Assembly: GCF_027257975.1 (NCBI RefSeq)
Contig: NZ_JANZKX010000008.1
Span: 62,001 to 126,000 of the forward strand
Source: Pelomonas sp. BJYL3
Lineage (GTDB): Bacteria > Pseudomonadota > Gammaproteobacteria > Burkholderiales > Burkholderiaceae_C
Reading direction: 5' to 3'
DNA: 64,000 nt
This document shows positions 11,808 through 33,408 of the stretch, one piece after another; the first letter of the stretch is position 1, and each line of letters starts with the position of its first letter. The notes below the pieces were generated by a model. The model did not search any database, was not told the origin of the DNA, and worked only from the letters and a program-made list of their open reading frames with translations. A program made the translations under genes and the position numbers.

Positions 11808-11831
11808 GGGCTGCCTTGTGCAGCCCTTTTT
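11808..11831 (+). terminator. Rho-independent terminator of the FKBP gene
   Basis: Stem GGGCTGC / GCAGCCC, loop CTTGT, then TTTTT; 21 bp past the stop codon. Confidence 0.9.
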
Positions 11832-11985: not shown

Positions 11986-12936
11986 ATGGACGTTCAGCTA
12001 CGCCTGGAACTGTTCGGCGCCTACAGCGTCAGCCTGCACACCGGCCACTGGGCCCCGCAGCGAAGCCTCGCCCTCAGCGGGCGCCTGGGCGGCCTGCTGG
12101 CCCTGCTCGCCCTGGGCCGGGGCCAGGCCCTGAACCGCGGCGAGCTGTGCCGCGAGCTGTGGGGCGCCGGGCCGGAATCGGCCAGCCCCGCCTGCTTCAA
12201 CACCCTGCTGTGGCGCCTGCGCCGGGCCCTGGAGCAGCCGCCCCTGGCCAGCGGCGCCATCATCGAGACCGACCGCCAGGGCGGCGTGCGCATCGCCCGC
12301 CATGTGCAGGTGCAGTCCGATCTGGAACGCTATCTGGCCTTGGTCGAGAAGCCCCTGGCCAAGCCGGTGGAGCAGCTGGAGGCGGGGGACGTGTGCGCCC
12401 TGCGCGAGGCCGTGCAGCTCTACCGTGGGGACGTGCTGGCCGGCTACCAGGACGACTGGGCGCTGCGCCTGCGCGAGCGTCACCGGCGCATGCAGCTGGG
12501 CGCCCTGGCACGGCTGATGCACCTCAGCAGCCTGCAGGGCCAGTGGCAGGACGCCATCCAGCACGGCGAGGCCATGCTGGACATGGACGCCCTGCGCGAG
12601 GACATCCACCGCGAGCTCATGCGCTGCCACCTGGCCGCCGGCCAGCGCGCCCTGGCCCTGACCCAGTTCGAGCGCTGCCGTGCCGCGCTGAAGCGCGAGC
12701 TGGCCATCGCCCCCATGGTCGAGACCCTGGCGCTTTACCAGGAGATCGCCCGCGAGGCCACCCGGCCCGCGAGCGCCGATGCCGCCCTGCCTCCGCCCAC
12801 CACGGTCTTCCCGCCGAGCGAGCGCGCCATGAACCTCCAGCCCATGCTGCCCTGGACCGAAGCCCTGGTGCAGGCCCGCTGGCACCTGGCCCAGGCCGAC
12901 GCCCACCTGCAGACGCAGCTGGACTTCGGCCACTGA
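11986..12936 (+). CDS. BTAD/SARP-like transcriptional activator
   Basis: 316 residues. The N-terminal ~95 residues read as an OmpR/SARP-type winged helix (LRLELFGAYSV...LLALLALGRGQALNRGELCRELWG...SPACFNTLLWRLRRAL); the next ~160 are the helical bacterial transcriptional activation domain (YRGDVLAGYQDDWALRLRERHRR...HLAAGQRALALTQFERCRAAL). The last ~50 residues are Pro-rich and unassigned. SARP-type regulators are best known in Streptomyces secondary metabolism. GGAG lies 4-5 bases before the ATG. It lies directly upstream of the multi-protease cluster, and phased direct repeats of the kind SARPs bind occur between the two, so it is probably the cluster activator. Confidence 0.85.
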   Translation: MDVQLRLELFGAYSVSLHTGHWAPQRSLALSGRLGGLLALLALGRGQALNRGELCRELWGAGPESASPACFNTLLWRLRRALEQPPLASGAIIETDRQGGVRIARHVQVQSDLERYLALVEKPLAKPVEQLEAGDVCALREAVQLYRGDVLAGYQDDWALRLRERHRRMQLGALARLMHLSSLQGQWQDAIQHGEAMLDMDALREDIHRELMRCHLAAGQRALALTQFERCRAALKRELAIAPMVETLALYQEIAREATRPASADAALPPPTTVFPPSERAMNLQPMLPWTEALVQARWHLAQADAHLQTQLDFGH

Positions 12937-13089
12937 GCCCGCCTCCCTCCTCCCCCGCTTCCCTCCTCCCCCGCACCCCCCTGGCTCACCGCCTGAGCCT
13001 GCAGCCCCAGCCCGGGGCCGCAGCGCGTGGCCGCGCCCGCCAGCCTCATCGCGCCGATCACTGGCCCATCACAGCCCTCACCCTGCCTT

Positions 13090-13129
13090 GTGATGGCCGT
13101 GTGATGGCGCCGTGATGCGGCGGTGATGA
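13090..13129 (+). promoter_or_regulatory. Four 11-bp-phased direct repeats (candidate SARP operator)
   Basis: GTGATG hexamers start at exactly 13090, 13101, 13112 and 13123, giving heptamers GTGATG(G/G/C/A) separated by 4 bp. SARP/BTAD activators (ActII-ORF4, DnrI, AfsR) bind heptamer direct repeats with this 11-bp period, about 8 bp upstream of a -10 box. Here CAAGAT, a weak -10 candidate, begins 9 bp past the last repeat. Inverse-orientation relatives GATCAC (13056) and CATCAC (13067), also 11 bp apart, lie just upstream. The gene for a BTAD protein ends 153 bp before the first repeat. Confidence 0.7.
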
Positions 13130-13142
13130 GCCGGGTCGCAAG

Positions 13143-13448
13143 ATGAGCTCGCCCACATTGCGCCCCTACCAGCGCCCCAACGCCATGGCCTTGATCAACG
13201 ACCGCAGCGCCGCCTTCATCGTGAGGGTGTGGTGCGAGCACGGCGATCAACCGGCGCGTGGCGTGCGTGACTGGCGGGGGTCCATCGAGCATGTCGAGAG
13301 CGGCGAGCGGGCCTTCTTCCGTGAGCTGAACGCAGTGCCCAGCTTCATGGACCGGCACCTGCGAACCCTCGGCATCGAGGCCCCCAACCGATTCTGGGAG
13401 CAAGTCTTCGACGAGGACGAGCCCCCCGAGCAGCGACCCAAGGAGTGA
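13143..13448 (+). CDS. Small conserved hypothetical protein, first gene of the protease cluster
   Basis: 101 residues, no signal peptide. The core AAFIVRVWCEHGD...DWRGSIEHVESGERAFFRELNAVPSFMDRHL looks like a compact beta-rich domain of a type I associate with unknown proteins in cyanobacteria and other bacteria; I cannot name it. The C-terminus is acidic (DEDEPPEQ). If the phased repeats and the CAAGAT at 13139 are the promoter, transcription would begin after 13143 and the real start would be the in-frame ATG at 13185 (MALINDR...). Neither ATG has a good ribosome site. The giant hydrolase gene begins 3 bp downstream. Confidence 0.7.
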   Translation: MSSPTLRPYQRPNAMALINDRSAAFIVRVWCEHGDQPARGVRDWRGSIEHVESGERAFFRELNAVPSFMDRHLRTLGIEAPNRFWEQVFDEDEPPEQRPKE

Positions 13449-13451
13449 GCG

Positions 13452-16400
13452 ATGCCACGCATTCAGGCCAATCGAGACCAGGTGGATGACCGCTTCAGCG
13501 TGCTGGGCTTCACCATCCGCACGGAGAGTCCCTTGTTCGAAGTGGCCGTGGCCACCGACCCCGCCCTGTTCCGCGCGGACGCCCGCGGCCGGCGCGGCCG
13601 GCGCAACTTCTACTCCAGCCGGGCCCAGGGCGTGCTGCGCGCGCGCCGCGGCGAGGCCGTCTACCTCCTGCCCCAGGACGTGCTGGCCAACTTCGTGGGC
13701 CAGCCCAAGCTCTACTTCGGCCTGGCCACCTACAAGGACGGCACGCCGCAGCAGCCGGACTTTGTGCAGCTGCCGCAGAGCGGGAACATGTACGTCTCCC
13801 TCAGCGGCCTGAGCGAGCGCGGCCTGCGCCGGTCCGTCGGGGCCTTCAACGGCAGCTCCTACGGCCAGGCCGCCACGGGCCGCGACCCCAGCCTCGAATG
13901 GGGCGGGGACAGCACGGCCGCTCGCCCGGCCACCGCGCCTGCGCCGGCCGCGGCCCCGAGCGCCGCACGCCCCGCTGCAGCGAATGGCGCGGCCGCCCCT
14001 GCCGGCACCGCCACCCCGGTCGCCGCCGGCCTGGACTATGACGACGGCTTCGGCCCCTTCCCCGCCGCGCAGTCGGACGAAGGCGTGCAGGCCTACCGCC
14101 AGAAGGACACCGGCGAGCAGCCCGCCAGCCAGTCCCCCGACACCCAGGCCATGGACATCCCCCTGGACCCGGGCGCCGGCGGCCGCTCCATCGGCCTGGA
14201 TGCGCTGCAGGCCGGCGACATCATCGTCAGCACGACGCGGGCCTGGGTCTCGCGGGCCATCCGGCTGGGCACGCTGTCGCCGGTCAGCCATGTGATGCTG
14301 TACCTGGGCGGCGGCCGAGTCATCGAGGCCGTGGGCTCGGGCGTGCGCGAGGTGCAGCTTGAAGCGGCCATCGCCGACGCCATCCTGGCCGTGGCCTACC
14401 GCGTGCCCAATCTCTCGGCCGCCCAGCGCGACCGCGTGCTGCGCGAGGCCCGCCAGTTCAAGGACCAGCCCTACAACTACCCTGGCATCGTGCAACGCGG
14501 CGTGGCCATCGTGGCGCCGGTGACGGGCGCGGTGGTCGATGCCATCAGCCGCCTGCTGAGCGTGCCGCGCCAGCAGGCGCATGCCGTCTACTGCTCGCAG
14601 CTGGTGCTGGAGGCCTACCAGCGTGCCGGCATCACCCTGCTGAGCAGCCCGGCCTCGCAGAGCACGCCCGAGGCCGTCGCCCGCTTCGCGCAGGGCCGCC
14701 TGGGCTATGTGGGCCATCTCAAGGCCGAGGATGTGCCCCTGGGCATCCAGTTCGCGCTGGACGAGGACAGCCCTGAGGCCGGCGCGCCCTATGCCGCACA
14801 GAAGCCAGAGCAGCGAACGGAGCAGGCCGTCCAGCCCCAGAGCTGGGTCGAGCCCCAGGAGGTGCTGCTCAAGGCCTACAACGGCACCCTGGGCGACCAG
14901 ATCCGCCTCTTCGCCGACACCGTGCGCTGGATCGCCGGCGTGGACGACACCCACGCACTGCCCCACAGCGCCATCTGCCAGGTGCTCTGCTACAACGGCG
15001 AGCGCATGATCGGCAAGGCCACGGCCTTCTTCATCGCGCAGCGCCTGCTGCTGACCAATGCGCACGTGGTGAACGGCTGCACCAAGCTCGTCATCATCCC
15101 CGGCAAGGTGGGCGATGGCGCGGGCAGCGAGCCCTTCGGCCGTTTCGAGACCACGACCTGGCGCGCCCACCCCAGCTACAGCCGCGGCAGCCGCGACTTC
15201 GACTTCGCCGTGGTCCTGGCCCCGCGCAATGCGCCCGGCGGCTTCCTCTCGCCCGTCGAGGAGCTGACCCAGAGCCGGCCCGAGGGCGTGGCCGTCTGCG
15301 GCTACTCGGCCCGCTCGCGGCGCGACGACCCGGTCGGCACCATCGTCAACGCCGTGCTCAACCCCGACAAGCAGCACGTGCACCGCGGCTATGTGCGCGA
15401 GATCACCGACGAGGTCATGCACTACGACGTGCAGGAGCTCGCCGGCTCCAGCGGCTCGCCGGTCTACTGGATCGAGGGCGGCGCCTTCCCGCGGGTGCAT
15501 GTGGTGGGCGTCAACGCCGGCCCGCGTGACGGCACCACCAACTCCGGCGTGCGACTCACCCGCGCCAAGGTGCAGTGGATCCGCGACCGCGCCCGCGACA
15601 TGGGAGTCAGCGTGAGCTTTGAGGCGGAAGGCGGCGAGGAGCCCAACCACGTCAGCGAGGCCCAGTCCGCCGAGGCGCTGATCATCGACAGCGACGACGT
15701 CACCCGCCTGCAGCGCCATCTGCCCGCCTGGCGCGACCTCTACACCTGGACCGCGCCCGGCAGCCTCACGGCGCCGCTGGCGGCCCGCAACATGCGCATC
15801 CAGCGCTTTGCCGACGCCCACGGCGCGCTGAACCTGGACCGCTACGAGGTACGCATCAGCCGCCTGCCCAGCGGGGCGACGCCGGAATCGCTGGTGGCGG
15901 AGATCCGCAAGAACATCAACCAGTACGTCGACACCCGCAACTCGGAATTCATCCCCTACGACGCCAGCGACGCCACGCTGTGGAGCTCCAACAGCCCCTT
16001 CGGCGCGGTGCTGAAGATCGACATCCTGGGCCCCGACAACGCCAGCGTGGTCTGCAGCCTGGCCGAGGCCCGCCGCTGGCGCTTCACCACCATCCATGCG
16101 CCGTGGTCCGGCGACCATCCGGTCAGCGGGCACCGTGAATTCGGCATCCGGCCGGACGGCGACGGCTTCATCTTCTTCACCCGCGCCGCGGACCGCGCCA
16201 CCGACGGCATCGCCGAGACCGTGGTCTGGGCCGGCGCCAACCACCTGTGGCAGAGCCTGCAGCGCAAGGTCACGGACTACGTCAACAGCCATGGCGGCGC
16301 GGCCAGCATCCTGCCTCACTTCAGCGAGCGCTTCCACCCGCGGGTGGCGGCCATCCTGGCTCAGGAGGTGATCGAGGCCCAGAGCCTGGCGGCCCAGGAA

Positions 16401-17711
16401 CCTGTGGCCGCGGCTCAGCCCCAGCGCGAGCTGCACCTGGCCCCGCCCCCGGCCCCGCAGATGCAGCAGCCCCTGGGCTGGGACGAGGCGCAGGCCGCAC
16501 CGGCCGCGGCCGTCGAGATCGCCAGCGCCATCGCCGGAGCCGCCATGGAGCGCCTCAGCAGCAACCAGGGCGACATCAACGTCGAGCTGGACCAGCTGCG
16601 CGGCCTCAAGCATCCCAATGACCAGGCGCCCGCGAACCCCGCGCCCTTCCAGGACGCGCCCGTGATCCGCCTGACCGGCTGGCCCAAGGTCAGCAACTAC
16701 CTGGGCGACGAGATCTCCGCCGGCTTCGAGATCCGCTGGCAGTTCAACGGCCGTTCGCTGGGCAATGTGCAGATCGCGCTGTCGCGCAGCAACGACGCCG
16801 TGGGCTGGGGCCTGCAGGTGCACGCCCGCATCATGGACGACGCCATCGTCTACCCGCGCCAGTCGCCCAGCTTCGCGGCCATCCGCGTGCGCTTCGACTA
16901 CCGCTTCACCCGCGCCGTCGGTTCCGACGTGCTGGCCCACCAGGAGGTCCACCTCTTCGGCAATGGCCGCCACAACATCAGCGGTGAATGGACGCAGGCC
17001 AGCACCTTCAGCCTGGCCGTGGAGGAAGAGGATCCGCGCCTGCTGCAGGCGCAGATGCCGGCCCAGGAGCTCAGCGGCGCCCTGGCCTTCACGGCCCGCA
17101 CCGCCACCCCCACGGCCCCCTCGCAGACCCTGCGCAACGCCCTGGGCGCGACCAGCGGCATGCGCAAGGCCCTGCTGGAGGTGGCGGCCCGCGAGCTGGG
17201 CGTGCGCGAGGAAGCCAACCCCCGCGCCGGCGAATCGGGCCAGGACCCCACCATCAATTCCGACAGCGAAGGCCGCATCGTGATGTACCTGCAGGAATGC
17301 GGGGTGGGCGCCGCGCAAGGCCAGGCCAACCCGGCCTACTGCGCCGCCTTCGCCACCACCATGCTGCGTCAGGCCGGCTACCGCGGCGTCAACGGCAGCG
17401 CCAGCGCCTCGCGGCTGCGCCAGCAGTTCGAGAGCGCCGGCAAGTTCCAGCTGCTGGACGCCAGCCGGCCCTACGACCCCGCCCGCGACTACCGCGCGCA
17501 GCCCGGCGACCTCTACTTCAAGGGCGCCCACGGCCACGAGACGCATGTGGGCATCGTGGTGGCCGTGGAGGACAACGGCACCCTGCACACCATCGAGGGC
17601 AACACCTGGGGCGCGGGCGGGCCGGCGCAGTCAGGCGTCATGGAACGCACCATCCGGCCCAGCCACGGCCAGCAGCGCGCCGCCATCGCCGGCTTCGGCG
17701 TGCTGAGCTGA
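13452..17711 (+). CDS. Giant three-hydrolase protein: permuted NlpC/P60-like + trypsin-like + CHAP
   Basis: 1419 residues; AAGGAG lies 6 bases before the ATG. No signal peptide or membrane segment. Order: residues 1-140, an unrecognised beta-rich domain (FSVLGFTIRTESPLFEVAV); 150-240, Ala/Pro linker; 250-440, permuted NlpC/P60 (YiiX-like) module starting AGDIIVS, with His280 (SHVMLYLG) preceding Cys381 (VYCSQLV), the permuted order; 480-700, chymotrypsin-like serine protease with H538 (TNAHVV), D584 (FDFAVV) and S667 (GSSGSP); 720-980, unassigned; 1075-1190, a predicted beta-sandwich; 1235-1419, CHAP amidase/endopeptidase with C1297 (AYCAAF) and H1365 (THVGIV). NlpC/P60 and CHAP modules usually cut peptidoglycan or acyl/amide bonds. 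I infer a multifunctional effector or processing enzyme of the surrounding cluster. Confidence 0.85.
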   Translation: MPRIQANRDQVDDRFSVLGFTIRTESPLFEVAVATDPALFRADARGRRGRRNFYSSRAQGVLRARRGEAVYLLPQDVLANFVGQPKLYFGLATYKDGTPQQPDFVQLPQSGNMYVSLSGLSERGLRRSVGAFNGSSYGQAATGRDPSLEWGGDSTAARPATAPAPAAAPSAARPAAANGAAAPAGTATPVAAGLDYDDGFGPFPAAQSDEGVQAYRQKDTGEQPASQSPDTQAMDIPLDPGAGGRSIGLDALQAGDIIVSTTRAWVSRAIRLGTLSPVSHVMLYLGGGRVIEAVGSGVREVQLEAAIADAILAVAYRVPNLSAAQRDRVLREARQFKDQPYNYPGIVQRGVAIVAPVTGAVVDAISRLLSVPRQQAHAVYCSQLVLEAYQRAGITLLSSPASQSTPEAVARFAQGRLGYVGHLKAEDVPLGIQFALDEDSPEAGAPYAAQKPEQRTEQAVQPQSWVEPQEVLLKAYNGTLGDQIRLFADTVRWIAGVDDTHALPHSAICQVLCYNGERMIGKATAFFIAQRLLLTNAHVVNGCTKLVIIPGKVGDGAGSEPFGRFETTTWRAHPSYSRGSRDFDFAVVLAPRNAPGGFLSPVEELTQSRPEGVAVCGYSARSRRDDPVGTIVNAVLNPDKQHVHRGYVREITDEVMHYDVQELAGSSGSPVYWIEGGAFPRVHVVGVNAGPRDGTTNSGVRLTRAKVQWIRDRARDMGVSVSFEAEGGEEPNHVSEAQSAEALIIDSDDVTRLQRHLPAWRDLYTWTAPGSLTAPLAARNMRIQRFADAHGALNLDRYEVRISRLPSGATPESLVAEIRKNINQYVDTRNSEFIPYDASDATLWSSNSPFGAVLKIDILGPDNASVVCSLAEARRWRFTTIHAPWSGDHPVSGHREFGIRPDGDGFIFFTRAADRATDGIAETVVWAGANHLWQSLQRKVTDYVNSHGGAASILPHFSERFHPRVAAILAQEVIEAQSLAAQEPVAAAQPQRELHLAPPPAPQMQQPLGWDEAQAAPAAAVEIASAIAGAAMERLSSNQGDINVELDQLRGLKHPNDQAPANPAPFQDAPVIRLTGWPKVSNYLGDEISAGFEIRWQFNGRSLGNVQIALSRSNDAVGWGLQVHARIMDDAIVYPRQSPSFAAIRVRFDYRFTRAVGSDVLAHQEVHLFGNGRHNISGEWTQASTFSLAVEEEDPRLLQAQMPAQELSGALAFTARTATPTAPSQTLRNALGATSGMRKALLEVAARELGVREEANPRAGESGQDPTINSDSEGRIVMYLQECGVGAAQGQANPAYCAAFATTMLRQAGYRGVNGSASASRLRQQFESAGKFQLLDASRPYDPARDYRAQPGDLYFKGAHGHETHVGIVVAVEDNGTLHTIEGNTWGAGGPAQSGVMERTIRPSHGQQRAAIAGFGVLS

Positions 17712-17739
17712 AGCCCCGACCACGAGACCCATCCCGCCC

Positions 17740-18798
17740 ATGGCCATGGACCCGCATCCGCAGTTCGCCAGCGCCCCGGCGCCCACCGTCGGCTTCGACG
17801 AGGGGGTACAGGCCCTGGGCGGCCTGCCGGGCATGCTGCCCGGGCTCAGCGGCAACGCCGTGCCTGCCCCGAGGCAAGCCCTGACCCCCAGCCCGGCGCC
17901 CGCCTCGCCCTCGCCCCCGCCCAAGCCGCCCGCCACCGAGACCCTGGCCCAGCGCACCGGCAACCTGATCAACGAGGTCGACTTTCCCGGCTTCGTGGCC
18001 CAGCTGGTCAACGGCACCTTCGACGCCATCGTCGACGCCTCCATCCGCCAGATGGAGAGCTATGCCGAGCTGGTGGCCGCGGTGGCCAAGACCACGGAGC
18101 AGTTCACCGAGGAGAACGTCAGCGCCAACCAGGCGCGCGACTGGGTGGCCCAGCAGTACGGTGCCGACGTGGCCGTGCTCCTGCCCCGCGGCAGCGACGA
18201 CCAGCTGCGCCAACCCATGCTGGTGCCGCGCGGCGAGGGCCACAGCCCGGCCTGGCTCGCAAACTACGGCGTGGGCGACCAGGAGCTCAGCAGCGAGCTG
18301 CTGGAGAGCGTGGTCCTGCCCCAGGCCCGCGCCCAGCTGGGCCGCGAGCGCCAGCAGCTGCTGGCCACGCTGGTGATGATGGGCCTCAACCGCGTGGCGG
18401 TGAAGGACGGCTCCATCAGCGCCAAGGTCATGTTCCGCGCCGTGGCCAACGACAAGGCCACGGTGCAGTACGCGCAGGGCGCCGACCCCGGCAGCGCCAC
18501 CGGGAGCAGCTGGGGCAGCCGAGGCTCGCTGGCGGCGTCCTCGGGCGTGTCGACCATGGTCAGCACGCTCAACCTCAACGCCCAGAGCGACACCAGCCTC
18601 AGCGCGACCATGTTCGGCGAGGTCAAGCTGAACTTCGTCTCCGAGACCCTGCCGCTGGACAAGATGGCCGATGCGATGAAGCTGGCCATGGTCCAGCGCC
18701 ATGCGGCCCTGGGCCCGCGCGCCGCGGCGCCCCTGCCCGCTGCCACGCCCGTCGCGCCCGCTGTACCGGCCGCCCCGACTGAACCCGGGAGGTCCTGA
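17740..18798 (+). CDS. Paralogue 1 of an unrecognised four-member family
   Basis: 352 residues. Shares three blocks with the products at 24401, 25800 and 28100: a helical block near residue 80 (VDFPGFVAQLVNGTFDAIV...QMESYAEL), a block near residue 200 (RERQQLLATLVMMGLNRV.VKDGSISAKVMF), and a C-terminal block (GEVKLNF.SETLPLDKMAD). It lacks the extra N-terminal helical module of the other three; instead it begins with a Pro/Ala-rich stretch and ends in an Ala/Pro tail. No signal peptide. Its TGA overlaps the next ATG (TGATG), implying translational coupling. Function unknown; conserved blocks and several copies suggest subunits of one assembly. Confidence 0.75.
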   Translation: MAMDPHPQFASAPAPTVGFDEGVQALGGLPGMLPGLSGNAVPAPRQALTPSPAPASPSPPPKPPATETLAQRTGNLINEVDFPGFVAQLVNGTFDAIVDASIRQMESYAELVAAVAKTTEQFTEENVSANQARDWVAQQYGADVAVLLPRGSDDQLRQPMLVPRGEGHSPAWLANYGVGDQELSSELLESVVLPQARAQLGRERQQLLATLVMMGLNRVAVKDGSISAKVMFRAVANDKATVQYAQGADPGSATGSSWGSRGSLAASSGVSTMVSTLNLNAQSDTSLSATMFGEVKLNFVSETLPLDKMADAMKLAMVQRHAALGPRAAAPLPAATPVAPAVPAAPTEPGRS

Positions 18799-19070
18799 TG
18801 CTGCGGGCCCTCTCCACCGTGATCGACGAGCTGCAGACCGCCATGGCACCGCTGCTGCATGAGGCGCTGGCGCCCGCCGGCGTGGCCCGCATCCGGCTGG
18901 CCGAGGCGCAGTTCGACCTGCCCCTGGACCTGGCCCTGGTCTTTGCCGACGGTGGCCCCTGCCTGCTGGCCGAGCTGCCGCGTTCCAGCAGCGACGGCCA
19001 CTGGCATGTCGACCGATCGCGCCTGCGCTTCGTGCTGCGCGCCGAGCTGGAAGAGGAGGTGTCGCCATGA
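18798..19070 (+). CDS. Small protein, possible Trypco2-like fold (90 aa)
   Basis: 90 residues, start overlapping the preceding stop and stop overlapping the next start (ATGA), so tightly coupled. One helix (LSTVIDELQTAMAPLLHEAL) is followed by strands (RIRLAEAQFDLPLDLALVF) and a final strand (SRLRFVLRAEL). This helix-plus-sheet order resembles the next gene's N-terminal domain, so it may be a second, divergent copy of the same fold; that is inference. No known motif. Confidence 0.65.
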   Translation: MLRALSTVIDELQTAMAPLLHEALAPAGVARIRLAEAQFDLPLDLALVFADGGPCLLAELPRSSSDGHWHVDRSRLRFVLRAELEEEVSP

Positions 19071-21327: not shown

Positions 21328-21359
21328 CCCTGTGCATGACCGAGTGACAAGGAGCCCCC

Positions 21360-23327
21360 ATGGCCAGCCAAAACCCCAAGAAGACAGCGCAGCGCAAGGC
21401 GGCCCCACCGGTCGCTGCGGCGCCTCGCGCCCCGCGCAAGAAGACGAGCGCCGCCGCTGCAGCGCCGCCACCCCCCACCCGCAAGGCCAGCGCCCCGGCG
21501 CGGGCCCGTCCCTCCCGTGCGGGCCTCGCCGCACCCAAAGCCACCGCCCCCGCTGCGGCAGCCAACACCCAAACAGGAGCCACCCAAATGAACCGCATCC
21601 TCTTCATCGACCTGGCCGAACGTGACCGCAACCGCCGCGCCGAGATCCGCGTGCGCATCGCCAACCTGGAGCGCATCGAGAACACCAAGGCCCGCTCCGG
21701 CGGCCTGGGCCCGGACCTGAAGAAGGAACTCGACGACCTGCGTGCCCAGCTCGCCGACCGCGACACCACCGACGAGCTCTACCGCGGCGTGGCCGAGCAG
21801 GTCTCGGGCAAGCCCTGGGCGGTGCTGTCGCAGACCGGGCAGACCGACTACGTGATGCGCTACGGCTTCATGGGCAGCCAGTACGGCGTGCAGCCCAATG
21901 ACCTGGGCGTGGAGGAGAAGGAGATCCTGGCCGTCTGCGGCTTGCTGCTGCTGGACGGCATCCAGGGTCCGGACAACCTGAACTTCGTCTCCAAGGTCAC
22001 CATCGCACGCGGCGAGTTCGAGCAGAACCGCGCCCTGTTCATGGCCGCCTTCAACCGCTTCACCACGCGCCATGAGGTGACGCTCAAGTCGCAGATCGAG
22101 AAGGGCTACGTGGACCCGGAGGCGCCCGGCTTCATCAGCGGCCGCAGCAGCACCAGCAGCACGAAGGGCAGCAGCTACCTGGTGCCGGACCCGGACGACA
22201 CCGTGTACGCCGTCTCCGCCAACAGCCTGGCCTCCATCGTGCGCCGCATCCGCGACGAGGGCATCTCCCCCAACGATCCCTGGCTCACCAGCCGCATGGA
22301 CAACGCCTTCAACCTGCTGACCGGCATGGTGGAAGGCGCGCCGCCCTCGGCCCTGGAGATCATGCTGCCCGACCTGGAAGAGGCCGTGGACGTGGAGATC
22401 CAGAAGGAGAACCTCCAGGCCTCGCAGGCCATCTACTTCGCCTACCAGCTGGAGGAGATGCGCATGTTCCAGGTGGTGGACAAGATCGTGGACCTCTTCC
22501 GCGGCGGCCTGCTGCCCCTGGGCAAGGGCACGGTGGGCGACAAGCTCTTCAAGTACTTCAAGACCAGCACCGAGCGCATCACCGAGGCCGAGCGCCGCGA
22601 GCTCTACTACCGCATGTTCGGCGCGCCCGGCGGCAACCCCAATGCCGGCGACCCCAACCGCGACTTCAACGAGCTGTGGCTGCGCTTCGTCTCGGCCGTG
22701 TCCAGCTTCGCCCGCCAGATCTCGGTGGAGCGGCTGCTGCGCAACAACGTGCCCATGGCCGTCAGCCAGGAGCAGGTGCGCAAGGCCGCGCGCGACCTGG
22801 GCGCCAACCTCTCGCGCAACGGCTACGGCATCGCCTACTTCGCCGCGACCGAGCTGCAGAACACCATCATCAACTTCCGCGACATCCTGCAGGACCCCGA
22901 CCTGCGCTCGGCCTTCGGCGCCCGCGACATGTGGCAGGTGATCGACATGGTCAACGTCAACTACCTGGGCGGCGCCAAGAACACGCACCGCTTCCGCACG
23001 CAGTCGCGCGCCGGGGCCATCATCATTCGCTGGATCTCGGAGAACATCCAGCGCCTGGCCAATATCTCGGGCCCGGTGCTCTCCATCGACGAGATCTCCA
23101 ACCCGCAGATGCGCATCTCCAGCGGCGCCAACCCCACGCTCAAGCCCACGGACTGGGACCTGGTCAATGCCTGCGAGCAATGGCTGGCGGTGATGGGTGT
23201 GCAGGAGCAGAGCGTGGAGCACTACTCGCAGTCCATCGAGGCCCCGGCGATGACCAGCCGGCCCATCGACATGCCCCAGGCCGCGCGCGATGTGCTGGCC
23301 TCCGTGGGCGTGAACCTGCCGGTCTGA
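21360..23327 (+). CDS. Large unknown protein with basic N-terminal tail and possible dual start
   Basis: 655 residues. Residues 1-76 are a Lys/Ala/Pro-rich disordered tail; residues 77-140 are strongly helical and charged (ERDRNRRAEIRVRIANLERI); the remainder is a soluble alpha/beta protein with no motif I can name (VEEKEILAVCGLLLLDG, NRDFNELWLRFVSAVSSFARQI, FRTQSRAGAIIIRWISENI). Two starts have good ribosome sites: ATG 21360 (AAGGAG) and ATG 21588 (AGGAG, 8-base spacing), the second giving a 579-residue form without the tail. Co-directional, 32 bp after the subtilase gene. No signal peptide. Function unknown; a structural or scaffold role is possible. Confidence 0.75.
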   Translation: MASQNPKKTAQRKAAPPVAAAPRAPRKKTSAAAAAPPPPTRKASAPARARPSRAGLAAPKATAPAAAANTQTGATQMNRILFIDLAERDRNRRAEIRVRIANLERIENTKARSGGLGPDLKKELDDLRAQLADRDTTDELYRGVAEQVSGKPWAVLSQTGQTDYVMRYGFMGSQYGVQPNDLGVEEKEILAVCGLLLLDGIQGPDNLNFVSKVTIARGEFEQNRALFMAAFNRFTTRHEVTLKSQIEKGYVDPEAPGFISGRSSTSSTKGSSYLVPDPDDTVYAVSANSLASIVRRIRDEGISPNDPWLTSRMDNAFNLLTGMVEGAPPSALEIMLPDLEEAVDVEIQKENLQASQAIYFAYQLEEMRMFQVVDKIVDLFRGGLLPLGKGTVGDKLFKYFKTSTERITEAERRELYYRMFGAPGGNPNAGDPNRDFNELWLRFVSAVSSFARQISVERLLRNNVPMAVSQEQVRKAARDLGANLSRNGYGIAYFAATELQNTIINFRDILQDPDLRSAFGARDMWQVIDMVNVNYLGGAKNTHRFRTQSRAGAIIIRWISENIQRLANISGPVLSIDEISNPQMRISSGANPTLKPTDWDLVNACEQWLAVMGVQEQSVEHYSQSIEAPAMTSRPIDMPQAARDVLASVGVNLPV

Positions 23328-23343
23328 GCCCAGGAGGCTTGTC

Positions 23344-24399
23344 ATGACGCAACCGATGTTCAAGCACGTGGCGCAGTCGCTGGCGGTGGCCTCGCGCCGC
23401 CTCGGCGTCAGCGATCCCATGGACTACGTGGGCCCCATGCTGCAGCGCAGCTTCGCCCGACCCGAGAACGACCTGGCCTATGCCAACAACGCGCTGACGC
23501 CCGGCGCCGTGCCCTACGAGCCCTCCTTCTCGGAGAGCGAGCCGCGCATGCTGCGCTTCACCATCTCGCCGCTGGAGCCCGAGGCCAGCCCCATGGCCCG
23601 GCGGGACGAAGCCACGCGCGAGCTGCGCCGCCTGGTCTACCCCATCTTCGGCCGCGATGCCCTGCGCTGGTTCGACGAGCGCAGCGAGGCCTGGCGGGGC
23701 ATGTCGGGTCTCTCGTGGATGAACTTCGGCGCCTGGTTCGGCAGCGCCTTCGACGAGGACGGCCTCTACGCCGCCAAGATCTACTACGAGCTCAACCCGC
23801 AGCAGATCGAGGCCCTGAGCCCCGGCCTCTCGCGCCTCACGCGGCGGGTGATGGCGCTGTACCCGCGGCTCATGCCCATCTTCACCAGCATCGGCTGCAA
23901 GCGCGATGCGGGCTCGCAGCGCGTGACCTTCATGCACCGCGGGCCGCTGGTGCTGTCCGAGCTGGGATCGCTGATGAGCGAGCTGGGCCTGGCCCAGCGC
24001 CTGCCCTCGCTGATGCGCGCCGTGGGCGTGGCCCTGGGCGGGCGCTTCGAGCTGCCGCACGGCTCGGCCCTGCTGGGCCTGCGCGAGACGCCCGAGGGCG
24101 TAGAGCTCAAGCTGGAGATCCTGCTCTCCGCCCTGCCCGACCTCCCCACAGGCTTCGTCGACCTGGTGCGCCTGGGCCTGGCCGAGCGCCCGCGCCAGCT
24201 GGTGGCCCTGGAGCGCTGGCTGCAGGCCTTCGGCGTGGACGATGCGCGCGAGCAGGGCCATTTCTCGGTGCTGTCCGTGCGGGTCACGCCGCGCAGCGAC
24301 GCCCGCATCAGCCTCTATGTGCGCCCCATCGAGTTCGAGCTGCGCGACCAGATGAACGAGCGCGCATCCGCCGGTCACGTCCTGAGCCCCGAGGTGTGA
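23344..24399 (+). CDS. Unknown cluster protein (351 aa)
   Basis: 351 residues, AGGAGG seven bases before the ATG, 16 bp after the previous gene. Text such as LYAAKIYYELNPQQ, LGLRETPEGVELKLEIL and ARISLYVRPIEFEL shows repeated strands ending in K-x-Y or L-Y-x-x-P, which is reminiscent of the ten-stranded ABBA prenyltransferase barrel. This is a weak resemblance and I do not assign an activity. No signal peptide. It ends one base before the second paralogue gene. Confidence 0.7.
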   Translation: MTQPMFKHVAQSLAVASRRLGVSDPMDYVGPMLQRSFARPENDLAYANNALTPGAVPYEPSFSESEPRMLRFTISPLEPEASPMARRDEATRELRRLVYPIFGRDALRWFDERSEAWRGMSGLSWMNFGAWFGSAFDEDGLYAAKIYYELNPQQIEALSPGLSRLTRRVMALYPRLMPIFTSIGCKRDAGSQRVTFMHRGPLVLSELGSLMSELGLAQRLPSLMRAVGVALGGRFELPHGSALLGLRETPEGVELKLEILLSALPDLPTGFVDLVRLGLAERPRQLVALERWLQAFGVDDAREQGHFSVLSVRVTPRSDARISLYVRPIEFELRDQMNERASAGHVLSPEV

Positions 24400-24400
24400 G

Positions 24401-25789
24401 ATGAGTGCACTGCCCGCCCCCAGCCCTTCGCCCGCCACGCCGCCCGTCAGCCGCGAGACCCTGCAGGCGACGCGCAGCTCCGTCCGCGCCCTGCTGGAGC
24501 AGAGCCCGGCCTACACCCGCCTGGCGCCGGACACCCAGCGCCAGCTGGCGCATGACCTGGTCCAGGTGGGCGCCTTCCTGGCCGAGCCGGGCATCAAGGT
24601 CGACCCTCAGCAGGCCGCGCCCGAGGTGCAGTCCCTGGCCGCGGGCGGCCTGCTGGGCTTCGGTGCGCTGAACAACCAGGCCAATGCGCGCGGCAGCACC
24701 AGCGGCGTCAAGGACGTGGAGGCGGACGATGCCCCGGCCTTCGGCGCCGCCGTGCGCACGGGCGTGGAGCAGGCCGTGGCCATGATCAAGGGGGTGAACT
24801 TCCCCGGCTTCGTCAGCGGCCTGATCAACGGCGTCTTCCACAGCATCGTCACGAGCAGCATCGAGCAGATGGAGGCCTACGCCAAGCTGGTGGCCGACGT
24901 CTCCAAGAGCCTCAACCAGTTCCGCGACGAGAACACCACGGCCAACCAGGGCCGCGACAACCTCATCGAGCGCTTCCCCGACCTCTTCCAGCTGCAGGAG
25001 CCCGGCCAGGGCGACTTCAGCTTCGGCGATGCGCCCGCCACCGGCCCGCGCGTGACCCTGCGCGAAGGCGTGGAGGAGAAGGACGCCATCGCCCGCATCA
25101 ACGGCAGCGGCCTGCCCCTGGCCCAGCCCCTGCAGCGCATCGACGACAACCTCATCGAGGCCCTGCTCGTGCCCGCCGCGCGCACCACCATCGCCACCGG
25201 CCGCCAGCAGCTGCTGGCCACCATGGTCATGATGGGCATGCAGCGCATCGTGGTGACGGACGGCAAGATCTCCGCCAAGGTGCTCTTCGACTTCCAGGCC
25301 CGCGACAACCGCCGCTTCCAGAAGAGCGCCGTCAAGTACGACTACGCGACGGACATGTACGGCAACGTCCAGAAGACCCACAGCGGCGAAGGCCAGTGGG
25401 ACTACAAGAAGGAAGGCGGCAGCGAGACCCGCAGCGACACCGGCGTGCTGACTGGCAAGACGGACGCCAGCACCTACTCGAACGGCTCCTACAAATACAA
25501 CGAGGCGCCCGTCGTCACGCTCATGAGCACCAGCCAGCTGCGTGACGACTCCTCGCTGCAGACCAAGGCCAGCCTGGCCGGCCATGTGGAGGTCAACTTC
25601 AAGAGCGACTATCTGCCGCTGGAGAAGATGGCCGACCCGGCCGCCATCGCCGCCATCCAGATGAACTCGCAGCCCGGCATGGTCAAGACGATGGCTGCGC
25701 GGCCGGTCACCACCACGCCGGGCGCGGCGGCACCCGCTGCAGCGCCGGCCGCCGGCACGCCGGCCCCTGCCCCCGCACCCGCCGCCTGA
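24401..25789 (+). CDS. Paralogue 2 of the four-member family
   Basis: 462 residues. N-terminal helical module near residues 20-65 (RSSVRALLEQSPAYTRLAPDTQRQLAHDL), then the shared blocks: VNFPGFVSGLINGVFHSIV...QMEAYAKL, GRQQLLATMVMMGMQRIVV.DGKISAKVLF and GHVEVNFKSDYLPLEKMAD. Between blocks 2 and 3 lies a ~90-residue Gly/Ser/Thr/Tyr-rich segment. The C-terminus is an Ala/Pro tail. No signal peptide, no known domain. Two of the other paralogues (25800, 28100) share its N-terminal module. Confidence 0.75.
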   Translation: MSALPAPSPSPATPPVSRETLQATRSSVRALLEQSPAYTRLAPDTQRQLAHDLVQVGAFLAEPGIKVDPQQAAPEVQSLAAGGLLGFGALNNQANARGSTSGVKDVEADDAPAFGAAVRTGVEQAVAMIKGVNFPGFVSGLINGVFHSIVTSSIEQMEAYAKLVADVSKSLNQFRDENTTANQGRDNLIERFPDLFQLQEPGQGDFSFGDAPATGPRVTLREGVEEKDAIARINGSGLPLAQPLQRIDDNLIEALLVPAARTTIATGRQQLLATMVMMGMQRIVVTDGKISAKVLFDFQARDNRRFQKSAVKYDYATDMYGNVQKTHSGEGQWDYKKEGGSETRSDTGVLTGKTDASTYSNGSYKYNEAPVVTLMSTSQLRDDSSLQTKASLAGHVEVNFKSDYLPLEKMADPAAIAAIQMNSQPGMVKTMAARPVTTTPGAAAPAAAPAAGTPAPAPAPAA

Positions 25790-25799
25790 GGACGCCGCC

Positions 25800-27134
25800 A
25801 TGCCAAGCACCGCGCTCACGTCCGCCGCCTCGGGCACTTCGGCGGCCCCGCACGACTGGCTGGACGATGCCACCCTGGCCACCGTGCGCCCCCAGGTGCG
25901 CGCCCTGCTGGCCCAGAGCGAGGGCTTCCGGGCCCTGCCGCCCGAGCAGCAGCGCGAGATCGCCCAGACCATGGTGCGCGTGGCCTCCTTCATGGCCAAT
26001 CCCCAGGGCCTGGCGCGCGAGGAGTTCGAGAACCCCGTGGTGCGCAAGGACGGTGGCTCAGTCGATGAGCCAGCGCGGCTGCCCCGCAGCGAGGCGGCCT
26101 CCGCCGAGGCCCTGGCCGGCGGCGTCGATGCGGCGAAGAACAAGGCCTCCGAGAAGGTGGGCACCTTCGCCGGCGCCGACTTCAAGGCCGGCGCCCTCCA
26201 GCAGGGCACCGAGCAGTTCAAGAACCTGATCAATTCGGTGGACTTCCCCGCCTTCGTCGGCGGCCTGATCCAGAACGTGTTCCAGGCCATCGTCAACGCC
26301 AGCATCCAGCAGATGCAGGCCTATGGCGAGCTGCTCAAGTCCGTGGCGCAGACCGTGGACCAGTTCGCCCAGGACAACATCAGCCTGGACCAGGCGCGCG
26401 GCTGGCTCAGCGACAAGTTCCCCGACGCGCTGCGCGTCGGGCGAGGCGAGCAGGAGGACGGCGGCACCGGCCAGCGACTGCAGCTGCGCAACGAGGACAA
26501 CGAAGGGGCGCTGGCCCGCATCAACCAGGAGCTGCAGCTGCTCAAGCCCGTCACCGACCTCTCGGACGAGGAGCAGGAGGCCCGGCTCGTGGCCGCCGCC
26601 CGCGTGCAGATGGCGCGCTCGCGCCAGCAGCTGCTGGCCTCGATGACGCTGCTGGGCATCAACCGCATCGTGATCACCGACGGCGCCATCAACGCCAAGG
26701 TGGTGTTCGACTTCCGCGCCAGCGACCAGGCCCTGCGCAAGGCCAAGGCCGGGCTCTCGGACCGCGAGCACATGCACAACACCAACATCTCCGGCGCGGC
26801 GGGCGGCTTCTTCGGCTGGGGCGCTGCCACCATGAACCGCAACGACTACGACCACATGACCACGGTCCAGTCCTCGGTGGATGAGAGCAGCGAGTCCAAG
26901 GCCTCGCTGAAGGCCAAGCTGACCGGCGAGGTGCGCGTCAACTTCAAGAGCGACTACTTCCCCATGGAGAAGCTCGCCACGCCGGGCATGCTGGCCTCCA
27001 TCCAAGGCAATGCCACGCCCTTCGACCCGAACCCGCCGCGGCCTGCCGCCCCGGCTGCACCGGGGACGACGCCCGCGCCGGCCGGCAATGCCGCCACCCC
27101 GGCCGGCCAGACGCCCCCGCGCATGGCCGCCTGA
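25800..27134 (+). CDS. Paralogue 3 of the four-member family
   Basis: 444 residues; GAGGA precedes the ATG. Same architecture as paralogue 2: N-terminal helical module (RPQVRALLAQSEGFRALPPEQQREIAQTM), block 1 (VDFPAFVGGLIQNVFQAIV...QMQAYGEL), an FPD-containing segment (WLSDKFPDAL), block 2 (RQQLLASMTLLGINRIVITDGAINAKVVF, quoted in pieces by the other members), block 3 (GEVRVNFKSDYFPMEKLA), and an Ala/Pro tail. It starts 10 bp after paralogue 2 and is probably a tandem duplicate of it. Confidence 0.75.
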   Translation: MPSTALTSAASGTSAAPHDWLDDATLATVRPQVRALLAQSEGFRALPPEQQREIAQTMVRVASFMANPQGLAREEFENPVVRKDGGSVDEPARLPRSEAASAEALAGGVDAAKNKASEKVGTFAGADFKAGALQQGTEQFKNLINSVDFPAFVGGLIQNVFQAIVNASIQQMQAYGELLKSVAQTVDQFAQDNISLDQARGWLSDKFPDALRVGRGEQEDGGTGQRLQLRNEDNEGALARINQELQLLKPVTDLSDEEQEARLVAAARVQMARSRQQLLASMTLLGINRIVITDGAINAKVVFDFRASDQALRKAKAGLSDREHMHNTNISGAAGGFFGWGAATMNRNDYDHMTTVQSSVDESSESKASLKAKLTGEVRVNFKSDYFPMEKLATPGMLASIQGNATPFDPNPPRPAAPAAPGTTPAPAGNAATPAGQTPPRMAA

Positions 27135-27155
27135 GTGCCGCCCCGGAGCATCGCC

Positions 27156-28097
27156 GTGAGCTGCGAGACCGCCCCCCATCCCGCCCACCATGCCGCCGCC
27201 GAGGCCCTCGCGGGCACCGAGGCCGCAGCGCCCGCCCCCGAGCCGGCGGTGCTGGCGCTGTCGGCCCTGCTGGACCAGGCCGAGGCCCTGCAGGCCGCGC
27301 ACCTGCCGGGTCTGCGTCTGCTGGCCCAAGGCCTGGACCTCGGCGCCATCGACCTGCCCGAGCCCGCCCGCCCCACGCGTGCACCGGCCCAGCTGGGCGT
27401 GCTGGCCAGCCTCTACCTTGTGCAAGAGCTGGAGCCCATGATCCGCGCCAGCGAGCGCATTGCCGCGCTGTGGAGCAGCGGCGCCATCAGCGTGGCCCTG
27501 CCCAAGCTGGAGCCCCTGCTGAAGAAGCTGTGGAAGGAACGCCGCCAGCGGCTCTCGGGCGACGAGCGCCGCGCCCTGCTGGCCCAGGCCTTCGACCCGC
27601 AGGACTTCGAGCCCGCCCTGGCCCGCCTCTGCGATGCCATCGTGCCCCTGGCCGACAACGCCGGCCAGCACGATGTGCGCGAGGAAGTCGGCCTGCAGCA
27701 TGCGGCCCAGGGCCTGCTGGAGATCGCTGCCAGCCGCCTCGAAGGCATGCTGCTGCAGGCGGCCGACGAGCTGCTGGGCCAGCTGCGAAGCGCCCTGCAG
27801 CTGCTGGGCGATCGCCAGCTGCAGACGGCCTTCGGTGTGCGCGACCTGCATGGCCTCGTACGCGCCGCCCTGGTCCATGAGCGAGACGTGCTGGGCGACC
27901 TGCGCCAGCGCTTCGACCGCGCCCGCGCGGGCAGCCAGGTGCTGATGTGGCTGGCTCAGGCGGCGAGCCAGGGCTTTGCCATCGCGCCCGCGGACCCGGC
28001 GCTGCAGACCCTCATCGCGGCGGCCGAGCGCTGGCGGCTTTCGGCCCGTGGAGAGCGCCCCGAGGTGGTCAACCTCGCCGTGCTGGAGGCCTTCTGA
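27156..28097 (+). CDS. All-helical unknown protein (313 aa)
   Basis: Leu/Ala-rich and predicted almost entirely helical (LALSALLDQAEALQ, LLKKLWKERRQRLSGDERRALL, LLEIAASRLEGMLLQAADELLGQL). No cysteine pairs, signal or membrane segment. The GTG at 27156 is chosen because GGAGC lies 8 bases upstream; an in-frame GTG at 27135 directly abuts the previous stop but lacks such a site. It sits between paralogues 3 and 4, 2 bp from the next ATG. Function unknown; a helical adaptor or spacer subunit is one possibility. Confidence 0.7.
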   Translation: MSCETAPHPAHHAAAEALAGTEAAAPAPEPAVLALSALLDQAEALQAAHLPGLRLLAQGLDLGAIDLPEPARPTRAPAQLGVLASLYLVQELEPMIRASERIAALWSSGAISVALPKLEPLLKKLWKERRQRLSGDERRALLAQAFDPQDFEPALARLCDAIVPLADNAGQHDVREEVGLQHAAQGLLEIAASRLEGMLLQAADELLGQLRSALQLLGDRQLQTAFGVRDLHGLVRAALVHERDVLGDLRQRFDRARAGSQVLMWLAQAASQGFAIAPADPALQTLIAAAERWRLSARGERPEVVNLAVLEAF

Positions 28098-28099
28098 GC

Positions 28100-29566
28100 A
28101 TGGAGGCCCTCAGCCCCGCCCGCCCCACGCAGGCCGTGCACGCGGCGGCCGCGCTGGGCCTGGAGGCCGACACCCCGCCGCCCTGGCTGCGCGCCGCCGT
28201 GCGCCAGCAGCTGGCCCACACCCAGGCCTATGCCGAGCTGCCACCCGAGCAGCGCCGGGACCTGGCGCAGGCCATGGTCAGGGTCTCCCACCTGGTGGCC
28301 CTGAGCCTGCAGGAGGAGCATGAGGCCGAGCAGGCCATACGCCGGCGCCAGCCCCGCGCGCAGCAGGCCGCGGTGCAGAGCCTCGAGGCCCAGCCCGACT
28401 TCGGCACCGCCACGCGCCAGATCGGCCAGACCACGCGGGACACGCTCAATGCCATCAGCTTCCCGCGCTTCGTGACCGACCTGCTCAACGGCGTCTTCCG
28501 CGCCATGAACGACTCCAACCAGACCCAGCTGCAGCAGTACCTGCAGCTGCTCAATGCGGTCTCCGGCTCGGCCCAGGGCTTCGAGCAGCTGGCCACGCAC
28601 GAGACCCAGGCGCGCCAATGGCTGGTCGACCATTTCCCGGACCAGCTCGAGATGGACGCCCCCGAGGCCCCGGACCCCGAGGACCGCCCCGCGCCCGGCG
28701 AGACGCCCGACCCCGACGACGCCCCCGAGGTGCCCCGCCTGCGCCTGCGCCCCAATGCGCACATGCCCGAGCCGGACACGCTCCGCGCGGCTTTCGGGCT
28801 CGGCCCCAACGAGCCCGTGGAGGCGTCGAACCCGGAAGCCCTCGTGCCCTTCGCCCGGCGCCAGCTCGCGCGCCAGCGCCAGCAGATGCTCGCGACCATG
28901 GTGATGATGGGCATGAACCGCATCGTGATCGACGCCGGCAAGATCAACGCCGCCATGCGCTTCCACATCGACACCCGCAGCGCCGCCTCCCAGGACCGCG
29001 GCAGCCAGTTCGGCATGCAGAACCGCGTGAAGGCCGGCGGCAGCTTCGGCATCGGCGCCTGGGGCGCCAGCGCCGAGGTGGAGAACACCATCTCCTACGT
29101 CAACACCGAGCGCAGCCAGCGCACCGAGGAGATCAACACCGAGGCCGAGCTGAACTCCTCGGTGGAACTGCATTTCCATACCGATGCGGTGCCGCTGAAC
29201 CGCCTGGCCGCGCAGGCGCAGGCGGACCGCATCCGCAATGCCAGCATCAACCCCAGCGCCGAGCTGGAGACCGCCCACCTCAATGCCCGCCAGCAGCGCC
29301 GCGAGGGCCAGCGCACGGGCGACGAGGCGCGCCGCACGAGCACGAACAGCGCTGTGGGCGGCGTGAGCCAGCCCAGCATGCGGGATGCGCCGCTGCCGGT
29401 GCCGGCGCCGGGGAGCACGGGTGGGACGGGAGGTGCCAGCGGTGGTGGTGGTGGCGGGGAGAGTGGGGGTACGGGCGGGGCGTCGGGTGCATCTGGCGCG
29501 TCGGGCGCATCGGGGGCATCTGGGGCCTCTGGCGCGAGCGGCGGCGGTGCTGCCACGCCGCCCTGA
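28100..29566 (+). CDS. Paralogue 4 of the four-member family, with Gly/Ser-rich tail
   Basis: 488 residues. It keeps the N-terminal helical module (RAAVRQQLAHTQAYAELPPEQRRDLAQAM) and the shared blocks in more diverged form (ISFPRFVTDLLNGVFRAM; RQQMLATMVMMGMNRIVI.AGKINAAMRF; SSVELHFHTDAVPLNRLA). Between blocks 1 and 2 there is an acidic Pro/Asp insert. The last ~60 residues are a Gly/Ser/Ala repeat (GASGASGAS...), like a flexible linker or a surface-exposed tail. The ATG at 28100 follows the preceding stop by 2 bp; a longer in-frame extension upstream is a shadow. Last gene of the cluster. Confidence 0.75.
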   Translation: MEALSPARPTQAVHAAAALGLEADTPPPWLRAAVRQQLAHTQAYAELPPEQRRDLAQAMVRVSHLVALSLQEEHEAEQAIRRRQPRAQQAAVQSLEAQPDFGTATRQIGQTTRDTLNAISFPRFVTDLLNGVFRAMNDSNQTQLQQYLQLLNAVSGSAQGFEQLATHETQARQWLVDHFPDQLEMDAPEAPDPEDRPAPGETPDPDDAPEVPRLRLRPNAHMPEPDTLRAAFGLGPNEPVEASNPEALVPFARRQLARQRQQMLATMVMMGMNRIVIDAGKINAAMRFHIDTRSAASQDRGSQFGMQNRVKAGGSFGIGAWGASAEVENTISYVNTERSQRTEEINTEAELNSSVELHFHTDAVPLNRLAAQAQADRIRNASINPSAELETAHLNARQQRREGQRTGDEARRTSTNSAVGGVSQPSMRDAPLPVPAPGSTGGTGGASGGGGGGESGGTGGASGASGASGASGASGASGASGGGAATPP

Positions 29567-29683
29567 CATCACGGAGGGCGTTTGTCTGGCCCCACATGCA
29601 GGGCCTTTCCGTTGCAGCGCGTCAGCACTTGGGCAAGGTGGTCATGCTGGATGGCATGACTGGTTCAGGCTGATTGCTGTCGC

Positions 29684-30754: not shown

Positions 30755-30830
30755 GGCAGCCTCCACTTGGCGGTGCCGCGAACCGGCCAAGCAAGTTTGT
30801 AACGGATGCGGCTTTTTGTCTGAAATTTAG

Positions 30831-31835: not shown

Positions 31836-31839
31836 CCCC
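31830..31839 (+). other. attC of cassette 2, left part (R'')
   Basis: GCCTAAC (31830-31836) is the R'' core; the next bases are interrupted by the IS110/IS1111-type element. The rest of the site resumes at 33348. Confidence 0.7.
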
Positions 31840-33245: not shown

Positions 33246-33347
33246 GGGCTTCCCCTTTCACAGGCTTGCAGATTGACGATTCGCACCATCAATCTTGGCG
33301 TCTCGACGCCGTGGGCCAGAAGGTGGGACGTCCCTTCGTATTCGCTC

Positions 33348-33400: not shown

Positions 33401-33408
33401 AGCACTAG

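Follow-up and report, generated by a model that had tools for sequence, protein, structure and literature searches.

What is encoded by the tightly packed genes that follow a BTAD/SARP-type regulator in this stretch of Pelomonas sp. BJYL3 DNA? The stretch, referred to here as the window, is 64,000 nucleotides long, and the genes lie between positions 11,986 and 29,566. A preliminary description had read them as a self-contained, undescribed multi-protease set without a peptide-synthesis enzyme. Our analysis indicates that the set is conserved as a unit, that one product, g3, is by its domain architecture a polymorphic effector, and that another, g7, has the predicted fold of a biosynthetic-enzyme family, the DMATS-type prenyltransferases. 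Because g3 is such an effector and an ABBA (alpha-beta-beta-alpha)/DMATS-type fold lies mid-operon, the gene set is more than a multi-protease system. About the conserved system and the g7 fold we have hardly any doubt. The regulator and the genes behind it are as follows.

11986–12936, + strand: g1, BTAD/SARP-type transcriptional regulator, 316 residues (PF03704, E 8.4e-23; PF00486, Trans_reg_C)
13143–13448, + strand: g2, 101-residue protein, function unassigned; homologue directly 5′ of g3 in many relatives
13452–17711, + strand: g3, predicted polymorphic effector, 1419 residues; constant N-terminal domain, C92 permuted papain-like, trypsin-like and CHAP modules
13452–13847, + strand: constant N-terminal domain of g3, about 132 residues (by alignment)
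17740–18798, + strand: g4, family A paralogue, 352 residues, loop Trp258 (family A alignment)
18798–19070, + strand: g5a, 90-residue protein without a Trypco2 match
19067–19897, + strand: g5b, 276-residue protein; weak DUF4332 row only (E 0.08)
19894–21327, + strand: S8 subtilase, 477 residues, no evident leader, catalytic Asp/His/Ser kept (PF00082, E 2.8e-37)
21360–23327, + strand: g6, family B, 655 residues (family B alignment)
23344–24399, + strand: g7, predicted ABBA/DMATS-type prenyltransferase fold (PRENYLTRANSFERASE fold), 351 residues (AlphaFold model, Foldseek)
24401–25789, + strand: g8, family A, 462 residues (two family A alignments)
25800–27134, + strand: g9, family A, 444 residues, candidate acceptor loop Trp340 (family A alignment)
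27135–28097, + strand: g10, 320-residue protein, apparently related to family B
28100–29566, + strand: g11, family A, Ser/Gly-rich C-terminal tail, loop Trp323 (numbered from 28094; gene start taken at the ATG at 28100)

Much of the preliminary description of this inventory stands: the regulator, the co-directional run from 13143 to 29566 (neighbours overlap by 1–4 bp or are separated by at most 32 bp), the subtilisin-like protease without a leader and the four paralogues, g4, g8, g9 and g11, which align with one another as family A. The gene count does not: twelve genes rather than eleven follow the regulator (g2, g3, g4, g5a, g5b, the subtilase, g6, g7, g8, g9, g10 and g11), with g5a and g5b both located between g4 and the subtilase in frames that differ from the mechanical 822-residue open reading frame at 18859–21327. 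The operon reading frames are backed by high third-position GC. In the subtilase, D188, H237 and S401 are each present in 97% or more of the 58 rows aligned, and the absence of an evident leader is judged by reading the start, with no signal-peptide program behind it. By sequence, g6 and g10 appear related, and in several relatives the protein in the g10 position matches g6 better than g10. Placing A and B in one family was rejected (hhalign probability 0.2%).

The set recurs far beyond the window. When named genomes were scanned once with a profile built from the four family A paralogues, 70 loci emerged (from the best 80 of 117 matching stretches), and the neighbouring genes were recovered by single-sequence searches with each window gene. 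g7 is present in 65 of the 70 loci. The core order A-g5b-S8-B-g7-A-A-B-A is exact in 38 of the 43 loci that cover at least 6 kb before and at least 7.5 kb after g7, and in 41 of them all core parts lie on the proper side of g7. These covered loci comprise 41 from Pseudomonadota, one from Acidobacteriota (L062) and one from Thermodesulfobacteriota (L065). The two that do not are L069, where a long frame assigned to family A overlaps g7, probably as a method artefact, and Cupriavidus necator A5-1 (L047/L111), where only g7–g11 remain, several of them split, and where no window gene was found before g7 in the 16.5 kb upstream (L047). Loci from Myxococcota, Cyanobacteriota, Chloroflexota and Gemmatimonadota, too short for the core-order test, keep the same order over most of the covered part; in some of the deep loci, Myxococcota among them, the A proteins at the end stand in a different arrangement. 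The gene set proposed in the preliminary description is thus found together, in order, in other genomes, a recurrence that exceeds chance.

The regulator is a frequent companion of this core. A BTAD homologue adjoins the cluster, on either side, in 23 other genomes (9 loci in one set and 16 of 34 stretches in another, two of these from genomes already counted), and the window genome, of 5.24 Mb, has two BTAD matches in all, one of them g1. No BTAD homologue was found in other stretches of similar reach (L114–L122). In a Burkholderia pyrrocinia replicon, which gave no BTAD match, the core is present in its usual order and DUF3467 takes the place of g2.

Individual loci show further features. 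In Ramlibacter montanisoli (L034, genome G104) g7 is split over two frames, by sequencing error or decay, and in genome G045 the family A genes lie on two contigs (C37 and C28; loci L127 and L128), representing one or two systems. L061 (positions 1214–2620), L062, L063 and L068 have an extra gene that separates g3 from the first family A gene; the L061 product contains PEPxSATGQYPDxVW-type repeats and has no Pfam row, and in L089 a relative only just attains the cut-off for GH46. Very large frames (about 950–2000 residues, stop to stop) follow the last family A gene in L084, L085, L086 and L088; they are common to some deep divergent systems, and some are possibly chance frames in high-GC DNA.

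The g3 protein is the variable element of the operon. In the window it has C92, NlpC/P60, trypsin and CHAP matches, all above Pfam cut-offs, and the usual C92, trypsin and CHAP motifs are located in place, with residues that we take to be catalytic. The preliminary description had recognized this multi-hydrolase architecture and missed the constant domain that precedes it. With the first 150 residues of the window g3 as query, a domain of about 130 residues is found in 33 of 34 g3 entries, the last being cut by a contig end; this proportion is partly by construction, the entries having been picked by similarity to the whole window g3 and including both the window and a repeat genome (L126 = L112). 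A profile of the domain matches once per genome in 37 of 39 genome entries (two of which, G002 and G100, look identical) and not at all in the Cupriavidus remnant (G113) or in Dinoroseobacter (G132), where a g3-like gene without the constant domain is located at the opposite end. The enzymatic part differs from genome to genome: a Burkholderia g3 (L023) has amidase, C70 and C92 modules, and 13 further g3-type proteins have varying sets of amidase, trypsin, C70, C92, C39-type and DUF3238 domains. These 13 include two shorter proteins with only a weak GH46 match (L121 and L122) and one with only a weak peptidoglycan-binding match (L118).

When interchangeable enzymes share a constant N-terminus, as in polymorphic toxins, this marks an effector that is delivered or docked. 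The g3 proteins have this arrangement of a constant N-terminal and a variable enzymatic C-terminal part, and on that basis g3 is a polymorphic effector, with exchangeable modules predicted to cut peptidoglycan or protein. The similarity to polymorphic toxin and effector systems lies in this architecture. Unlike those systems, g3 has several modules per protein and is the single effector in each of the 37 matching genome entries, and no known delivery apparatus was recognized in the operon.

The g7 gene encodes the least expected product. Its AlphaFold model is of high confidence (predicted local distance difference test score, pLDDT, 91.1; predicted template-modelling score 0.88) and is built of alpha-beta-beta-alpha units. 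In a Foldseek search of the PDB, CymD ranks first (E 1.2e-12, template-modelling score 0.69), 88 matches pass E 0.001 and all of the 50 listed are prenyltransferases; the predicted model has the prenyltransferase barrel that defines DMATS/ABBA enzymes. By strand order and spacing rather than by superposition, Glu59, Arg71, Lys145-x-Tyr147, Arg193 and Arg321-x3-Tyr325 of g7 correspond to the indole- and donor-binding residues Glu106, Arg119, Lys187-x-Phe189, Arg248 and Arg378-x3-Tyr382 of TleC, as given in the consulted part of that report (PMC4786772); binding residues of FgaPT2, from the consulted part of a second report (PMC11443524), were also used for comparison. Of 67 g7 proteins, 53 retain the assigned donor-binding residues Arg71 and Lys/Arg145, and 40 of 57 family members jointly retain Glu59, Arg71, Lys145, Arg193 and Lys/Arg256. 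A PF11991 (tryptophan dimethylallyltransferase) row occurs in 32 of these 57 members at E up to 10, the best being 1.3e-4. The model and its Foldseek matches indicate that g7 is very likely an ABBA barrel of the tryptophan dimethylallyltransferase type, for which prenyl transfer is predicted; where the preliminary description saw no biosynthetic system, the operon does contain a member of a biosynthetic-enzyme family.

Several results weigh against this assignment. Rows for an unrelated domain, PF09099, occur in 27 of the 57 members (best 0.0039). In searches of the PDB with g7 sequence profiles, CymD appears only at a non-significant E of 0.87–1.1, below a plant protein. The position matching Tyr252 of TleC has no Tyr in g7. 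The donor residues are missing from 14 of the 67 proteins, seven in a sphingomonad-type group and seven in a deep divergent group, and the retention of these degenerate copies suggests a non-catalytic role as well. Two further searches added nothing either way: a PDB profile search with one divergent g7, and a PF11991 search for DMATS proteins in relatives and cyanobacteria, which gave no match for them or for the controls, so that it is no proof of absence.

Two groups of known enzymes are close to g7. The DMATS or indole ABBA enzymes (CymD, TleC, FgaPT2; PF11991) have the same barrel; unlike them, the window g7 has no Pfam row and is located in an operon with a lytic effector. Bacterial peptide side chains are prenylated by cyanobactin-type (F-family) and ComQ/PalQ-type enzymes, according to the consulted part of a 2026 review (PMC13290415), where daptomycin is also named as a substrate of ABBA aromatic enzymes. 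g7 has its barrel in common with the F-family; in contrast to it, g7 is nearest to the DMATS indole enzymes and stands in an operon where no small precursor peptide was recognized.

If g7 transfers a prenyl group, family A contains candidate acceptors. Structure modelling, advised in the preliminary description, was less informative here than for g7: the g8 model (pLDDT 65) consists of helices at 116–191 and two longer strands flanking a low-confidence loop, and PDB profile searches with families A and B gave nothing useful. Because the family A model is poor and without a fold match, a membrane action of this family is a guess. The loop is rich in Ser, Thr and Gly (29–45% in the four window paralogues versus 13–21% in the preceding part), and a conserved Trp lies in it in g4 (258), g9 (340) and g11 (323). 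Among systems whose g7 has the donor residues, twelve Trp columns reach at least 90% conservation. Eleven of these columns are kept throughout in the sphingomonad-type group, whose g7 lacks the donor residues, and only g9 Trp340 is lost, being Phe in 7 of 7. In a first alignment Trp340 is present in 39 of 39 proteins with an intact g7 versus 3 of 19 with a degenerate one; in a second the counts are 44 of 45 versus 7 of 21 proteins, or 42 of 43 versus 6 of 14 per locus. The lone exception with an intact g7, L057, has the loop Trp when read directly and is probably misaligned, and seven further genomes with an intact g7 all have the g9 Trp.

Other observations count against a link between Trp340 and g7. 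L163, one more genome of the sphingomonad type, is likewise without the g9 Trp, but its g11 Trp column also reads Phe. The deep divergent group, also with a degenerate g7, has a g9-type protein with the loop Trp in 6 of 7 loci. In addition, the sphingomonad-type group has lost 37 of 611 conserved columns of any kind, so that a single loss among three loop Trp residues is not rare by itself. We base the link on the sphingomonad-type clade alone; with one supporting and one non-supporting clade it amounts to a single event and is suggestive only.

Library scans covered all twelve operon proteins in Pfam (E up to 1), nine in NCBIfam and ten each in PHROGs and PADLOC, the last two without cut-offs. 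The only matches above cut-off are to generic BTAD, S8, C92, NlpC/P60, trypsin and CHAP models; in PHROGs and PADLOC, g3 and the subtilase have hydrolase or protease rows, and a few other proteins have weak ones. g9 narrowly misses DUF6683 (23.0 bits versus a cut-off of 23.6). g2 has no Pfam or PADLOC row and only NCBIfam and PHROGs rows at E above 0.05; g5a has no row in Pfam, PHROGs or PADLOC; and g6 has none in Pfam or PHROGs and one in NCBIfam at E 0.38. The Trypco2-like protein of the preliminary description was not recovered, since none of the twelve proteins has a Trypco2 row in Pfam. Its statement that contractile, type VI and exporter parts are not recognizable agrees with our scans, as does its view of the set as undescribed: no described system was recognized with the four libraries. 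The literature searched, mostly outside subscription journals, yielded no description of the operon as a system. A phage origin was also rejected, g8 having no match in phage records and g7 none in viral contigs (those two proteins).

The distribution of the system is sporadic. The 35 genomes reached through the loci each have one copy of g7 (in two pieces in G104). It occurs in 22 of 247 genomes from the family of the Lysobacter of L043 (G110) and in 4 of 347 from that of the Sphingomonas of L073 (G126), both counts including the central genome, and among 369 genomes of the window's class the single match is the window's own. g8 occurs in 4 of 100 relatives, the window genome counted, and its closest named matches are in Mitsuaria sp. 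WAJ17 (97%) and Roseateles subflavus (94%). In a midpoint-rooted g7 tree, with some rows from metagenome-assembled genomes, Bradyrhizobium groups with Cupriavidus (99/87) beside Albitalea (100/98), Rhizobacter Root1221 lies inside the sphingomonad clade (100/100) and Aliikangiella lies among Chitinibacteraceae (100/94). In the Bradyrhizobium locus (L038) Albitalea is the best partner for all six genes listed, g6 and g9 being outside that table, and in the Rhizobacter locus (L075) all eight genes listed point to Sphingomonas. The tree placements and the partner genes suggest that the gene set was horizontally transferred as a set.

Upstream of the operon are a JmjC/ROXA-type gene and NlpB- and DHDPS-type genes; downstream are an integrase and a lower-GC stretch with transposases. 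The phage-type integrase, with an N-terminal SAM_4 domain, lies directly 3′ of the operon at 29684–30790 on the − strand, convergent to it. Within 31830–37339, a Mutator-type transposase gene at 34587–35852 lies between two IS110-type copies (from 31830 and 35924), which share 99.9% identity over about 1.5 kb; the transposase of the first copy was scanned against the domain library. Two weak terminator-like hairpins bound the genes.

29588–29605, + strand: weak hairpin 3′ of g11 (1 found in the stretch versus a shuffle mean of 0.9)
11808–11826: weak hairpin 5′ of g1 (1 found versus 0.5 in shuffles)

Other readings of the operon share parts of this evidence. An anti-phage or abortive-lysis device, whose assembly would respond to infection, be switched on by the subtilase and trypsin and break open the host cell through the hydrolase module, would account for hydrolases without an evident leader, for more than one protease, for the sporadic distribution and for the adjoining integrase and transposases. 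We consider it unlikely: the targets of amidase and CHAP domains lie in the wall, beyond the membrane, the Pfam scans revealed no nucleotide-binding sensor, and the ten proteins scanned in PADLOC matched nothing beyond a generic subtilase model (E 1.3e-15), protease models in weak rows and, for g10, Cas11e in one weak row (E 0.0056), on which basis a catalogued anti-phage system was rejected for these ten. A structural or developmental assembly, such as an intracellular particle or a wall-remodelling machine with g7 mainly as scaffold, is improbable to a similar degree. The four A and two B-type proteins do suggest an assembly, and g7 is kept in spite of donor-site loss in the degenerate groups, but most g7 proteins retain the donor-site residues, and payload polymorphism with sporadic occurrence is unlike housekeeping.

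The BTAD regulator and the DMATS fold could also point to a biosynthetic cluster, with g7 and the subtilase making a prenylated peptide. The subtilase shares its S8 domain with the PatA/PatG cyanobactin protease and matches that model below cut-off (85 of 421 bits). This explanation is distinctly unlikely, as the core consists of large uncharacterized proteins and a wall hydrolase, Pfam gave no nonribosomal peptide synthetase or polyketide synthase row in the operon, and no precursor peptide is evident among the called genes, for which no dedicated search was made. The S8 domain is also shared with mycosin of type VII secretion, the best NCBIfam match of the subtilase (E 2.7e-44; 152 bits against a required 279). 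We nevertheless disfavour a divergent type VII, contractile or type VI secretion system as highly improbable: Pfam and the NCBIfam and PHROGs subsets gave no sheath, tube, spike, VgrG or EccC-type ATPase row, and the tail rows in PHROGs are confined to the hydrolase domains of g3. The partner genes of the mycosin and PatA/PatG systems were not recognized in the operon.

The mechanism that we propose instead is a horizontally mobile conflict or predation assembly that delivers lytic effectors with the help of a prenylated, possibly membrane-active component. It starts from the fixed core order, the payload polymorphism, one hydrolase per system, the frequently adjoining BTAD gene and the predicted g7 fold. 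The A and B proteins would form an assembly on which g3 docks through its constant N-terminal domain, and the subtilase would mature or activate it. g7 would prenylate an aromatic acceptor, in the simplest case a Trp in one of the operon's own proteins, and the prenyl group could serve as a lipid handle for a membrane. Family A, with its hydrophobic helices and its Ser/Thr/Gly-rich loop between two strands, may be the membrane-active part. The payload would then degrade the target cell's wall and proteins during competition or predation, the role that the preliminary description had also inferred. As a whole this mechanism is possible, and we put it forward tentatively. Its most specific form, a protein-lipidating effector machine in which g7 prenylates a Trp in the Gly-rich loop of a family A protein (g9 Trp340 leading) that thereby becomes membrane-active and delivers the payload, is unlikely to be correct in full; we know of no natural DMATS-type enzyme that acts on a large protein.

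Further points speak against this delivery mechanism. No delivery apparatus was recognized among the operon proteins in the library scans. The fold search with the g8 model returned no match (best E 0.025). Finally, family A matches occur on three cyanobacterial plasmid records, and the one examined, a diverged set with S8, B and g5b matches, has no g7 match.

The same order of nine core genes, accompanied by a polymorphic payload gene and in many cases by a regulator, is found in several phyla. The operon joins two fields that rarely meet, that of polymorphic lytic effectors and that of tryptophan-type prenyltransferases. If g7 naturally acts on a large protein, such a DMATS-type enzyme would be new as far as the consulted part of the 2026 review goes (PMC13290415). 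Should the proposed mechanism be true, the operon would represent a new delivery route for lytic enzymes together with natural tryptophan prenylation of a protein.

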